Assembly: GCF_004342625.1 (NCBI RefSeq)
Contig: NZ_SMAH01000011.1
Location: forward strand, 1-64,000
Direction: 5' to 3'
Source: Tepidimonas ignava
Lineage (GTDB): Bacteria; Pseudomonadota; Gammaproteobacteria; Burkholderiales; Burkholderiaceae_C
Length of the DNA stretch: 64,000 nucleotides
The notes beneath the pieces are model-generated. The model ran no database searches and was not told the origin of the DNA. It saw only the letters and a list, made by a program, of their open reading frames with translations. Positions 695 to 15,606 of this stretch are shown here, piece after piece; position 1 is the stretch's first letter, and each line of letters begins with the position of its first letter. Both the position numbers and the translations under genes were made by a program.

Positions 695-796
695 TTAAGA
701 CGCGACTTCTTTGTTGATGTCAATCGGTTCTTTGGCGTTGGCCAGGTACGCCGGCAGGTTGTCGCTGGACTCGAACGGAACAACGGTCATGCTCAT
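695..796 (-). pseudogene. Truncated small ORF, N-terminal 33 residues, phage-like
   Basis: On the minus strand an ATG at 796 opens a frame of 33 codons (begins MSMTVVPFESS, ends INKEVAS). Its last residue and TAA stop lie inside CRISPR repeat 9. It starts 17 bp after the stop of the 814-1077 gene, so it looks like the next gene of the same operon, cut off by the repeat junction. The motif NLPAYLANA resembles the start of small phage proteins I have seen, but that is memory and not a search. An alternative start is the ATG at 790. A functional product is unlikely. Confidence 0.5.
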
Positions 797-813
797 GTTG
801 GTTCTTCGGGTTT

Positions 814-1077
814 TCACTTGATGGATTGGTTCACACGATCTTGCAGCTCGTGCACGAAGGTCTGCAACAGCGCGGCGCCCAAACCGCGCTGACGACCCAT
901 TTCAATGAGGGAATCGGCCAGAGCCTCAACAAGCTCTTGGTCGTCGATGGTCGGCCACCGCTCCGTCGATGATGTCATGGTGACGAAGAAGTCCGTGAAC
1001 TCTTTGCGCAGTATCTTGCGCACAAGCGCCTGACGGCGGACCGATAACTCACGCAGCATTTTGTCTTTGTACGTCAC
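814..1077 (-). CDS. Small hypothetical protein, phage-like, inside the CRISPR insert
   Basis: This encodes 87 residues from a GTG start preceded by an AAAGGAG ribosome binding site at good spacing. That site overlaps the stop region of the upstream gene 1080-1358, only 2 bp away, so translation is coupled. The protein is charged, starts MTYKDKMLREL, is probably helical, and has no signal peptide or membrane segment. I recognise no family. Coupled start, tight packing and lower GC argue that it is a genuine gene from a phage or plasmid operon rather than a chance frame. It runs opposite to crRNA transcription, so an array transcript would be antisense to it. Confidence 0.55.
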   Translation of the reverse strand: MTYKDKMLRELSVRRQALVRKILRKEFTDFFVTMTSSTERWPTIDDQELVEALADSLIEMGRQRGLGAALLQTFVHELQDRVNQSIK

Positions 1078-1079
1078 GT

Positions 1080-1358
1080 TTAGCTCCTTTTGATGTTGAC
1101 GACGCGCTCTTCGCGCCAGCTGATGCCCGGGGGTAAGTCATTATGCTCATTACGCCACGCCTGAACAACCGTCTTGTTGGCCCGGCGCTTCAGTATAGAC
1201 CACTCACCAGGGCGCTGAACCCAGCCCAGGAACGCATACCTGTCCGCCACGGTCGTGCTGTTGCAACGCAAAATGTAGTGGGTGTCTGCGCTGTTGCGGA
1301 TAGACGCTACGCCAAGCTCGGTCATGAACTTGAGCAGGTAGTTTTGTATCCGCGTCAT
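1080..1358 (-). CDS. Small hypothetical protein, phage-like, first gene of the CRISPR insert
   Basis: This encodes 92 residues starting MTRIQNYLLKF. The ATG lies only 6 bp from CRISPR repeat 10, so any natural promoter and ribosome binding site upstream have been replaced by repeat sequence. The frame has a stop within the repeat when traced backward. The protein has no signal peptide, and its C-terminal part is basic and tryptophan-rich (WREERVVNIKRS). No family is recognised. Its stop codon overlaps the ribosome binding site of 814-1077. It may be unexpressed here unless a promoter exists in the array on the minus strand. Confidence 0.5.
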   Translation of the reverse strand: MTRIQNYLLKFMTELGVASIRNSADTHYILRCNSTTVADRYAFLGWVQRPGEWSILKRRANKTVVQAWRNEHNDLPPGISWREERVVNIKRS

Positions 1359-1470
1359 GGCGTCGTCCGAAACACTTCCCCGATATCGAGGGGATTAAGA
1401 CCAACCTTTCTTATTGACTGGTTTATTCCGCGCGCCCGAAACACTTCCCCGATATCGAGGGGATCAGGAC

Positions 1471-11595: not shown

Positions 11596-12750
11596 TTAGC
11601 CCGCCAACGGCTGCCCCGCGGCTTGTTGGATCAGCCAACGCTTGAGGGGTTCCAGCCGGTCCACGGCCCGCATACCCCAACGGCGCAGCGCAGCGGCGCC
11701 AGCGTCCGGGCGGGCAAAGAGGCCGTGCAGCGTGTCGGTGGTGGCCAGCATCGCGGCCACGGGCGCGGCGCGCGCGCGCTCATAGCGGCGCAGCAGGCGC
11801 AGGTCGCCCAGCGGACGCCAGTACTCGCGTTCGCGCAGCACGCGGGCCAGTTCCGCGACGTCGCCCAACCCCACGTTGAGCCCCTGACCTGCCAGCGGAT
11901 GCATGGCATGGGCGGCGTCGCCTGCCAGCGCCAGACCGGGGCGCACCCAAGGGCGCGCCAGTGAGCGCTGCAGCGGCCAGCCGGCGGGCTGGCCGACCAG
12001 CGTCATCGTGCCCAGCGCGTGCGCGCACGCCTGTTGCACCGCCTGCGCCAGCGCGTCGGCGCTCAGCGCCAGCAGGTGCGCCGCGCGCGCGTGCGGCACC
12101 GACCACACCATCGCCACTTGCTGGCCTTCGGTGCCGTCCAGCGGCAACAGGGCCAGGATCTCGTCGCCGCGAAACCACTGCCGCGCCACCGTGCCGTGGG
12201 GGCGTTCGCAGCGCAGCCGTGCGGCGATGGCGGTGTGGGGGTAGGGGACGGTGTCGTAGGCGATGCCCTCGGCCGCCCGGGTGGCGCTGTGGCGCCCTTC
12301 GCACACGATGGTCAGCGCCGCGCGCGGGCGGGGGTCGGTGGTGGCGTCGAGGCGCTGCACGCCATGTTGGTAGTGCAGCGCCTGGTGCAGCCGCTGCTCC
12401 AGCGCCGGCACATCGACGATCCAGCCAAGCGCCTCGTCGGGCTGCGTGGCGTCGAAGCGCAGCGCGGCATGCTCGGGCGCCGCCCCTCTGTCGGCGGCCG
12501 GATCGGCGTCGGCCACCCACATGGTGCGCACCGGGGTGGCCAGCCGCTCGTCGTCGGGCCACGCCCGCACGCTGTGCAGCAGCGCCCGCGAGGCGGCGTT
12601 GAGCGCGTACGCCCGTATGTCGGGCGCGGCGTCGGGGCGGGCGGGGCGCTCCACCAACGCCACGCGCAGCCGCTCGCGCGCCAACAGCAGCGCCAGCGTG
12701 CGGCCAACGATGCCGCCGCCCAGGATGGCGACGTCGAAATGGGTGTTCAT
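11596..12750 (-). CDS. UbiH/UbiF-family FAD monooxygenase (ubiquinone biosynthesis)
   Basis: This 384-residue class A flavin monooxygenase has an N-terminal FAD motif (ILGGGIVGRTLALLLARE) and the signature GDAAHAMHPLAGQGLNVGLGD near residue 290, typical of the UbiH/COQ6 family that hydroxylates the ubiquinone ring. The start at 12750 gives the Rossmann motif at the usual distance. It lies 52 bp upstream of dsbC on the same strand, and the three genes may form one transcript. Which ring position it acts on cannot be told from sequence alone. Confidence 0.88.
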   Translation of the reverse strand: MNTHFDVAILGGGIVGRTLALLLARERLRVALVERPARPDAAPDIRAYALNAASRALLHSVRAWPDDERLATPVRTMWVADADPAADRGAAPEHAALRFDATQPDEALGWIVDVPALEQRLHQALHYQHGVQRLDATTDPRPRAALTIVCEGRHSATRAAEGIAYDTVPYPHTAIAARLRCERPHGTVARQWFRGDEILALLPLDGTEGQQVAMVWSVPHARAAHLLALSADALAQAVQQACAHALGTMTLVGQPAGWPLQRSLARPWVRPGLALAGDAAHAMHPLAGQGLNVGLGDVAELARVLREREYWRPLGDLRLLRRYERARAAPVAAMLATTDTLHGLFARPDAGAAALRRWGMRAVDRLEPLKRWLIQQAAGQPLAG

Positions 12751-12806
12751 GGGGCGATGCCGGGGTGGGTGGGGATGGTCACGCCTGGGCTTGCACGTTG
12801 CGCGCG

Positions 12807-13481
12807 TCACCACGCCTTGGGCTCAAAGCCGGGCTGGTTGCGCACCACCACGTCGTCGTCGGCCTGCACCAGCACGTACAGCCCCTGCCGCTCGGCGTAG
12901 CGCACGACCTCGTCCGGCGCGCCCATGGCCGCCACCGCCCCGTGCAGCACCTTGTCGGCGTGTTCGGTGAAGCACGCCCTGAAGCGCTGCAGCCGCTCGA
13001 TGTGCTCGTCCACATCATCGCTGCTCAGGCGGCTTTTGCACTCCACCGCGATGGCGTGCTCACCGTTGATGACCAAGAGGTCGATTTCCATCACCGCCTG
13101 GCCGCTGTCGTCCCGGGCCACCGCGTTGGGGTAGACCCGGTGCACGGGGATGCCCTGCTGCTGAAACAGCCGCACCACGGCGGGCATGACCATGTCCTGC
13201 ACAAACATCCCCAGGCGGTTGCCCAACTGCCCGAGCTGGCGCTCCAACTGCTTGAGCCGCTGGTCGATGCGGCGGTCGGTTTCCTGCAGCCGACGGTCGG
13301 TCTCTTGCATCCGACGCTCAGTCTCCCGCCCCGACTCGCGCAGCTCGCGGATGAGTCGGTCGGTCTCCTGCAACCGACGGTCCGTTTCTTGCATCCGACG
13401 GTCGGTTTCCTTGCTTTGCTGGGCAAGCTCAGCGATCATGCGCTTCAAGTCGTCCCAGCTGATGTCGTCGCGTGCGCCCAT
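12807..13481 (-). CDS. Coiled-coil protein with PD-(D/E)xK nuclease-like core (DUF3782-like)
   Basis: This 224-residue protein has a long heptad coiled coil at residues 24-85 made of near-identical ETDRRMQ/ETDRRLQ units, encoded by 21-bp DNA repeats. A C-terminal alpha/beta domain follows, in which D134 and the ECK at 147-149 match the PD-(D/E)xK nuclease signature (MEIDLLVINGEHAIAVECK). Such proteins are common in cyanobacteria and some thermophiles; their function is unknown. The ATG at 13481 is chosen; an upstream ATG at 13517 is possible. It is divergent from the MOSC gene. Confidence 0.75.
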   Translation of the reverse strand: MGARDDISWDDLKRMIAELAQQSKETDRRMQETDRRLQETDRLIRELRESGRETERRMQETDRRLQETDRRIDQRLKQLERQLGQLGNRLGMFVQDMVMPAVVRLFQQQGIPVHRVYPNAVARDDSGQAVMEIDLLVINGEHAIAVECKSRLSSDDVDEHIERLQRFRACFTEHADKVLHGAVAAMGAPDEVVRYAERQGLYVLVQADDDVVVRNQPGFEPKAW

Positions 13482-13569
13482 GGCGGTCTCGAGAGGGGGG
13501 TGTGTGCTGACGCCCATTCTACGCCCGACGGTGTAGGCGCGGCCCGGTGTTCGGGGCACAATCGTGGTC

Positions 13570-14472
13570 ATGACGACGTCCGAGCCACTGCCGTTGACGC
13601 TGGAGGAGATCTGGATTTACCCCGTCAAGTCGTGCGCCGGGATACGGCTGCACAGCGTGGAGCTGCTGCCCGAAGGGCTGGAGTGGGACCGCACCTGGAT
13701 GGTGGTGGACGCGCGCGGCGAGTTCGTGTCGCAGCGGGAGTTGCCGCGCATGGCGCTGATCCAGCCACGGCTGCGCATGGGGCAGTTGGAGCTGCGCGCG
13801 CCGGGCATGTTGACGCTGCATCTGGCGCTGGAAGCGGCCGAGGCGCCGTGCCGCGTGCGGGTGTGGGACGACGAGCTGCCCGCCTACGACATGGGCGACG
13901 TGGCGGCGCAGTGGTTCACCGACTTTTTGGGGCCCGATTGTCCGCCGGGGATGGGACCGCTGCGGTTGGTGCGCTTCGACCCCGAGGTGCGGCGTCTGTC
14001 GCCGCTGGCGTGGACGGGTGGCGTCGAAGCCCCGACCACCTTCAGCGACGGCTACGCGCTGCTGGTGCTCAGCCGCGCGGCGCTGGACGGCCTCAACGCC
14101 CGCCTGCAGGCGCTGGGGCAGCCGCCGGTGGATGCGCGCCGGCTGCGCCCCAACCTGGTGCTGGGCGGTGTGGGCCCGCACGCCGAGGACGGTTTGCGGG
14201 CGCTGACGCTGAAGGCCGACGGTGCGCCGCCCGACGCCCCAACGGTGCAGCTGGAGCTGGTCAAGCCGTGCGCGCGCTGCACCATCCCGGACGTCGACCC
14301 CCAGCAGGGTGTGCGCGACGATCGGGTCAGCCCGGTGCTGCGCACCTACCGGGCCGATGAGCGGCTCAAGGGGGCGATCACCTTTGGCATGAACGCCATC
14401 GTGCGCGGTGGCGCTGGCCAGATGCTGCACGAGGGCATGGGCGGCTGGGGCAGCACACAGGCCACGTGGTAG
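13570..14472 (+). CDS. MOSC-domain protein (YcbX-like, molybdenum cofactor binding)
   Basis: This 300-residue protein has an N-terminal MOSC_N beta-barrel (IWIYPVKSCAGI) and a C-terminal MOSC domain with the conserved Cys motif VKPCARCTIPDVDP, where the molybdenum cofactor is held. Homologues (YcbX, mARC) reduce N-hydroxylated compounds. It lacks the C-terminal 2Fe-2S ferredoxin extension of E. coli YcbX, so electrons must come from a separate protein. The ATG at 13570 is used; a GTG lies two codons upstream. A CACAAT -10-like box lies just before it. Confidence 0.88.
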   Translation: MTTSEPLPLTLEEIWIYPVKSCAGIRLHSVELLPEGLEWDRTWMVVDARGEFVSQRELPRMALIQPRLRMGQLELRAPGMLTLHLALEAAEAPCRVRVWDDELPAYDMGDVAAQWFTDFLGPDCPPGMGPLRLVRFDPEVRRLSPLAWTGGVEAPTTFSDGYALLVLSRAALDGLNARLQALGQPPVDARRLRPNLVLGGVGPHAEDGLRALTLKADGAPPDAPTVQLELVKPCARCTIPDVDPQQGVRDDRVSPVLRTYRADERLKGAITFGMNAIVRGGAGQMLHEGMGGWGSTQATW

Positions 14473-14508
14473 CATCGTTGGCTTTTGGCGAGCAGGGGAT
14501 CGATCGAC

Positions 14509-15606
14509 ATGAGCCTCAAGTGCGGCATCGTGGGCCTGCCCAACGTGGGCAAGTCCACGCTTTTCAACGCCCTGACCAAGGCCGGCATCGCGGCCGAGAA
14601 CTACCCTTTTTGCACCATTGAGCCCAACGTGGGCGTGGTGGAGGTGCCCGACGCGCGGCTGCAGCAGTTGGCGGCCATCGTCAAGCCGCAGCGCGTGGTG
14701 CCGGCCATCGTCGAATTCGTTGACATCGCCGGGCTGGTGGCCGGCGCCAGTCAGGGCGAGGGGCTGGGCAACCAGTTCCTGGCCCACATCCGCGAAACCG
14801 ACGCCATCATCAACGTGGTGCGCTGCTTCGACGACCCCAACATCGTGCACGTGGCGGGCCGGGTCGACCCGATCGCCGACATCGAGGTGATCCAGACCGA
14901 GCTGTGCTTGGCCGACCTGGGCACGGTGGACAAGGCGTTGCAGCGCTATCAAAAAGCCGCCAAGAGCGGCAACGACAAGGAAGCCGCCAAGATGGTGGCG
15001 CTGCTGAGCAAGGTGCGCGCGGTGCTGGATGAGGGCCGGCCGGTGCGTGTGCTGGAACTGACCGACGAGGAGCGCGCGCTGCTCAAGCCGCTGTGCCTGA
15101 TCACGGCCAAGCCGGCGATGTTCGTGGGCAACGTGGCCGAAGACGGCATGGGCGACGACAACCCGCACCTGCGCCGGTTGCGCGAGTACGCCGCCAGCCA
15201 AGGCGCGCCGGTGGTGACCATCTGCGCCAAGCTCGAAGCCGAGCTGGCCGACATGGACGAGGCCGACCGGGCCGAATTTTTGCGCGAGCTGGGTTTGGCC
15301 GAGCCGGGCCTCAACCGCCTGATCCGCGCCGCGTACGAGCTGTTGGGGCTGCACACCTACTTCACCGCCGGCGAAAAGGAGGTGCGCGCCTGGACCATCC
15401 GCAAGGGCGCCACGGCGCCGCAGGCCGCCGGGGTCATCCACAGCGACTTCGAGCGCGGCTTCATCCGCGCCCAGACCATCGCGTTCGACGATTTCATCCG
15501 CTACGGCGGTGAGCAAGGGGCCAAAGAGGCCGGGCGCATGCGCGCCGAAGGCAAAGACTACGTCGTGCACGATGGCGACGTGATGAATTTCCTGTTCAAC
15601 GTTTGA
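14509..15606 (+). CDS. ychF: Redox-regulated ATPase YchF
   Basis: This 365-residue Obg-family P-loop ATPase has G1 motif GLPNVGKST, the switch region [12 protein letters not shown], a coiled-coil insert and a C-terminal TGS domain ([23 protein letters not shown]). YchF associates with ribosomes and negatively affects the oxidative stress response. Length is standard. Start MSLKCGIVG at 14509 is the family start; the upstream ATG at 14485 is less likely. Confidence 0.97.

Follow-up and report, generated by a model that had tools for sequence, protein, structure and literature searches.

Passages of PMC9048733, PMC7677007, PMC13034035, PMC8616872 and PMC10284694 describe a strict length ruler for spacers, and type III spacers of about 36 bp. 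The passage concerned in PMC9048733 gives tested type III spacers a roughly normal length distribution around 36 bp, and the corresponding part of PMC10284694 stresses the single-nucleotide precision of the Cas1-Cas2 ruler. One published spacer miner discards anything longer than 50 nt, according to a section of PMC7677007, and with a ceiling of this kind spacer-mining scripts can overlook giant intervals. Among the titles and abstract beginnings searched, a scope that leaves most subscription papers outside, there is no report of a natural phage-derived spacer of hundreds of bases. Casposons carry terminal inverted repeats and their own cas1, and phages are known to carry mini-arrays.

The window, which is the whole 64-kb stretch analysed, forms the first 64 kb of contig C11 in a 2.7-Mb draft genome of 32 contigs. 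It starts within a CRISPR array that contains, near its trailer end, one interval of a very different size. The features of the array and of this interval are as follows.

1 to 95, + strand: end of an insertion sequence that splits one spacer; the facing end lies at the start of contig C12 (L046 74-101)
106 to 701, + strand: nine CRISPR repeats and eight ordinary spacers (30-34 nt), with the 37-nt unit GYCCGAAACACTTCCCCGATATCGAGGGGATTAAGAC
665 to 701, + strand: repeat 9, leader-side flank of the giant interval, 37 nt, with 5 substitutions in the 35-nt core
702 to 1364, + strand: giant spacer, one contiguous 663-bp stretch of phage DNA with a full repeat on either side
702 to 796, - strand: start of phage gene C, about 29 codons, cut by repeat 9 (327 aa in the phage contig L003)
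814 to 1077, - strand: phage gene B, complete, 87 aa, homologue of a 94-aa protein (L003:6281-6565)
1080 to 1364, - strand: fragment of phage gene A, whose frame (94 codons and a stop) stays open up to the edge of the interval
1365 to 1401, + strand: repeat 10, trailer-side flank of the giant interval, 37 nt, consensus sequence
1402 to 1470, + strand: last ordinary spacer (32 nt) and last repeat, the trailer end of the array

With the repeat taken in its 37-nt form, the interval is bounded by the end of repeat 9 at 701 and the start of repeat 10 at 1365, in agreement with the initial annotation, whose estimate of about twenty times the normal spacer length also holds (663 bp against 30-37 nt). 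The ordinary complete spacers (n=64, 55 on C12 and 9 on C11) span 30-37 nt, with a mean of 33.5 and an s.d. of 1.3. The interval thus lies outside the length set by the integrase ruler, and it is therefore named an oversized, spacer-like insertion, not an ordinary spacer. A full repeat stands on each side, with no repeat sequence lost. The lower GC noted earlier is real, 0.56 in the interval against 0.70 in the window; ordinary spacers are also low in GC (0.58 on C12, 0.61 on C11), so the low GC fits a phage origin and is not peculiar to the giant interval. Apart from one 30-nt match, its own assembly holds no other copy of the interval, and the 99 other genomes (relatives) searched hold none apart from matches of 26-39 nt. 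The stretches concerned (978-1007, 844-882 and 865-890, matched in C10 and in three relatives) are taken as chance similarities or conserved motifs.

The array is divided over two contigs. On C12, the first ~4.4 kb consist of 56 repeats and the leader, followed by the cas genes. The insertion-sequence end at the start of the window occurs at 14 places in the genome, at least ten of them at contig ends; this multi-copy element explains many contig ends of the genome. Eight such ends, that of C11 among them, are alike as far as one and the same GAC, beyond which they differ. Both flanks of the split spacer, read outward, start with TAGCTA, a probable 6-bp duplication. Removal of one TAGCTA copy restores, when the two sides are joined by eye, a 33-nt spacer and the GC that opens the repeat, and for this reason C12 and C11 very probably adjoin. 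The array joined in this way would very probably comprise 67 repeats and 66 spacer positions, one of them giant. Since the leader and the cas genes lie on the C12 side, crRNA reading runs along the + strand in the window. The giant interval is now next to last, and the trailer end is where an old entry would sit.

Repeats 5-9 each depart from the 35-nt core at 1 to 5 positions, and the last repeat has two substitutions, near its 3' end. The predicted hairpin of repeat 9 is weaker than that of repeat 10 (-3.4 vs -9.4 kcal/mol). The spacers at 424-456 and 632-664 are 94% identical over 33 nt and have similar flanking repeats, which would reflect either several captures from related phages or a duplication within the array long ago. 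A search with the 27-nt core, in which as many as 3 mismatches were allowed, finds the array repeat in none of the ten other genomes of the genus. The nearest relative, G009, retains, at 94% identity, part of the flank that follows the array.

The interval is collinear with the IMG/VR contig L003. In blastn, positions 704-758 align with L003 6667-6613 (79%) and positions 829-1362 with L003 6538-5997 at 66% identity; the 70 nt between the two blocks are covered by the global alignment alone. This collinearity extends homology to within 2 nt of both repeats and, together with 18 phage relatives of gene A, marks the interval as foreign. The fragment of gene A covers the C-terminal ~94 residues of a 139-aa L003 protein (L003 5860-6279), and its ORF (1080-1358) has 12 IMG/VR relatives, the best at 60% identity. 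In all 18 phage relatives of gene A examined, the open frame continues for 33-70 residues upstream of the column at which the interval starts, so this end of the interval falls mid-gene. The 92-aa gene that had been read here as a whole gene is therefore not one, its ATG being an internal position of the longer phage protein. The next gene in L003 is the homologue of gene B and shares 45 of its 87 residues; the 327-aa gene that follows agrees, at its start, with 16 of the 29 codons kept from gene C. Reading frames are intact, and in each gene it is the third codon positions that differ most often from L003 (positions 1/2/3: A 27/22/49, B 33/25/43, C 10/8/13).

The neighbouring L003 genes match DNA polymerase, exonuclease, endonuclease and helicase, and weakly primase/helicase families. 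Gene A itself matches PHROG 13900, named 'minor head protein', and one phage record, Xanthomonas phage Xp15; the PHROG name is doubtful because replication genes surround gene A in L003, and it may be wrong. As judged by alignment and gene content, the interval is contiguous phage early (replication) DNA with one gene cut at each end. The coupled small genes first proposed are real to this extent: they lie on the minus strand and form a stretch of a phage replication operon, but that stretch is cut at both ends. Their orientation opposite to crRNA reading was described correctly, with genes on the - strand and crRNA on the + strand, which gives the polarity required of a type III guide. The similarity to L003 is moderate, and the donor phage itself was not found. 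No match to the interval is returned by blastn against the phage and plasmid collections. For gene B, tblastn gives no phage match and the window's own copy finds no viral relative; its L003 homologue finds L003's own contig alone. A pattern search for gene A in genome contigs was fitted by 24 stretches, none of them a relative.

The cas genes on C12 are those of a type III-B system, with Cas10b/Cmr2, Cmr3, Cmr4, Cmr6 and Cas6; Cmr1 and Cmr5 are not among the proteins identified. The locus contains two cas1 and two cas2 genes (L046 4123-6545). The best PADLOC match of the second Cas1 is PDLC01185, 'Cas1, diverged variant, second in the loci' (E 1.6e-12), and a diverged Cas1 beside a canonical Cas1 makes this a dual-Cas1 adaptation module. 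Against general Cas1 models the second Cas1 scores only weakly, and it shows no catalytic motif. When 22 diverged and 21 canonical Cas1 proteins are aligned, the Glu column is a gap in 22 of 22 diverged sequences, which also lack conservation in the His and Asp columns, the alignment being loose there; these three columns are taken here to hold the Cas1 catalytic residues. The same locus encodes two ancillary effectors, a Card1-like nuclease and a 914-aa CARF-adenosine deaminase (L046 6623-7789 and 9012-11753).

A second case is found in G107, a genome of another genus with a related dual-Cas1 system. Its CRISPR array contains a 1,413-bp interval (L125:16097-17509) flanked by repeats with 0 mismatches, and one frame is open over all 471 codons. 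This frame matches an InPase domain and DarB-like polyvalent proteins of phages; tblastn finds 464 phage records, each covering less than 80% of its length. The interval has no further copy in G107 and is absent from G151, a member of that genus. The phage frame runs opposite to crRNA reading in both giant intervals, which at n=2 is weak evidence.

The second case comes from a survey of arrays near related adaptation modules. Of 399 genomes of the order, 5 have PDLC01185, as do 18 of 369 genomes of the class; the genome of the window is counted in both, giving 22 genomes. From the 21 others, 28 stretches were taken, and canonical Cas1 is present in the stretches of all 22. With the alignment of 21 canonical Cas1 proteins, at least 571 relatives were found in named genomes, and the 80 best entered the survey. 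A diverged Cas1 occurs in 70 of these 80 loci in a strict two-profile comparison, and in 97 of 109 loci in a looser count that treats pieces of one genome apart. Removal of duplicates (L163, L203) and of a non-CRISPR 27-nt repeat family (L130, L163) from 57 arrays leaves a study set of 53 arrays with 1,363 intervals, or 1,373 with the 10 from C11. Nine of the 53 arrays have no diverged Cas1 in the same stretch; for L125 and L138 it lies in the neighbouring stretch. The controls are 60 Cas1 loci of the same class, hand-picked mostly from the top of the list (88 of 229 genomes matching) with known dual-Cas1 loci left out. They contain 41 arrays with 1,246 intervals, and none of the 60 has a diverged Cas1 in the strict test. 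Repeats like those of the study set occur in at least two control arrays (L308, L309). The array detector needs at least 4 repeats and is blind to intervals longer than about 6 kb at an array end, and the surveyed stretches are 10-20 kb long, so arrays are often cut.

Phage-derived giant intervals number 2 among the 1,373 study intervals and 0 among the 1,246 control intervals. Both belong to dual-Cas1 genomes, that of the window and G107; the counts are too few to separate the two sets, and dual-Cas1 systems are therefore not shown to be special. Other long intervals of the study set were not counted as phage giants. Transposases identify insertion sequences in L151, where the element splits a repeat, in L185 (1,316 bp), in L188 and twice in L231, and L185 also contains runs of N of 124 and 172 bp. 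Intervals at trailer ends or beside degenerate repeats were set aside in L140 (517 bp), L174 (2,153 bp), L182 (874 and 227 bp) and L185 (350 bp), one of which may be a third giant case. The L174 interval (13388-15540), 2.1 kb from the last repeat to a truncated repeat, carries GNAT-like and HEPN/nucleotidyltransferase-like frames (by eye). In L182 (Nitrospirales, 12481-13618), 874 bp with an SNase gene that matches phage nuclease families and a further 227 bp lie between degenerate repeats at the trailer end, and may be an older giant spacer. The long control intervals inspected consist of a transposase (L280), runs of N (L263), cas genes that separate two arrays (L252, by eye), frames resembling Cas1 and reverse transcriptase that precede a degenerate repeat (L309, by eye), and missed or duplicated repeat pieces (L256, L273). 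A 9.6-kb control interval in L255 ends at a repeat with four mismatches, probably a spurious distant repeat. None of the long control intervals inspected is a phage fragment between full repeats.

The interval is probably an oversized spacer, produced when Cas1-Cas2 integrated an untrimmed prespacer and joined it at both repeat ends. Of the origins put forward in the initial annotation, oversized capture fits best: a phage fragment cut mid-gene, full repeats on both sides and a second, independent case in G107. Recombination with a mini-array carried by a phage, also put forward there, has in its favour the general fact that such mini-arrays exist, and it is very improbable here. The 20-nt repeat core has 0 exact matches in viral_contigs and the 35-nt repeat has no match in the phage and plasmid collections, both ends of the interval fall mid-gene so that the junctions lie inside phage coding sequence, and the other spacers of the array match the 12 phage loci of gene A relatives over 11-20 nt only. 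An insertion sequence or other transposon that entered an ordinary spacer or repeat is hardly credible either. Mobile elements are common in such arrays, with five transposase-bearing intervals in the survey and one in the controls, and one insertion sequence sits in this very array; the giant interval, in contrast, has no transposase family among its three frames, no exact 12-nt inverted ends in its outer 200 nt, and neither a split-spacer remnant nor a split repeat, its flanking repeats being whole. A chimera, in which the assembler joined a phage read or contig into the array, would suit a draft of 32 contigs with an array divided at an insertion sequence. It is nevertheless quite improbable: L003 resembles the repeat in register at only 4 of 12 positions at each junction, the interval has no second copy in the assembly and both junctions fall exactly at repeat ends, the five substitutions that set repeat 9 apart from the other repeats show that the junction is not a generic repeat collapse, and another genome presents a second case.

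Illegitimate or microhomology-driven recombination is the least remote of these alternatives, although still unlikely. A phage fragment would then have been placed between the repeats with Cas1-Cas2 not making both joints, for example when a half-integrated or broken array was repaired with phage DNA. Near one junction, the end of the repeat matches L003 at 10 of 12 positions, a level reached by 0.2% of random 40-nt L003 stretches, and this leaves room for such an event. The five substitutions that separate repeats 9 and 10 point the same way, and they also count against oversized capture, after which the two repeats are expected to be identical at birth (core substitutions 5 vs 0). The match, however, is displaced from the register by 6 nt and has no counterpart at the other end, two separate illegitimate joints would be needed exactly at the outer edges of full repeats, and G107 has the same layout with perfect repeats. 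Further points weigh against oversized capture: the precision described for the ruler (PMC10284694) and the 36-bp centre of tested type III spacers (PMC9048733), the small number of such cases (two in all), the moderate similarity to L003, and a physical continuity that is read from the assembly.

With the other origins set aside, joining at both ends of one repeat, with duplication of that repeat, remains. In this oversized capture, infection by a phage related to L003 would have supplied a long, untrimmed DNA fragment to the type III-B Cas1-Cas2. The two 3' ends of the fragment would have been joined to the two ends of the repeat that was then leader-proximal, both joints presumably being made by Cas1-Cas2, and gap filling would have duplicated the repeat as in ordinary acquisition, leaving 663 bp instead of ~33 bp between the copies. 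The ruler may have been escaped through one long (looped) prespacer end, or through two integrase complexes acting on the two ends. A pre-crRNA across the giant interval would be antisense to phage mRNA, and a 3'-trimmed crRNA from its first ~35 nt could guide the Cmr complex, provided that the part of the array beyond the insertion sequence is transcribed at all.

A broader idea, possible but rather improbable, is that in a type III-B branch with an active Cas1 and a degenerate second Cas1 the integrase acts like a transposase on unmeasured DNA, occasionally lodging phage fragments of 0.6-1.4 kb between repeats in crRNA polarity; two Cas2 proteins are evident in the system of this genome. If this were true, the array would store long antisense stretches, possibly with more than one crRNA from each. 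The two natural intervals, from different genera and ~20x and ~40x too long, are substrates with which to ask whether, and by which ends, the ruler is bypassed. They suggest that an integrase that measures its entries tightly can occasionally store a far larger piece.

Compared with known systems, the giant interval shares with insertion sequences in CRISPR arrays the presence of a long foreign interval inside the array. Those elements split a repeat (L151) or a spacer (this genome), whereas the giant interval splits neither and has no transposase. With the casposase it would share the joining of both ends of a long DNA by a Cas1-type integrase, with duplication of the target; the terminal inverted repeats and own cas1 of casposons are both missing from it. 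It also resembles ordinary type III acquisition, in which foreign phage DNA also lies between full repeats, the repeat is duplicated, and cas1 and cas2 stand by the leader. The difference is one of length, 663 bp here and 1,413 bp in G107 against 30-37.
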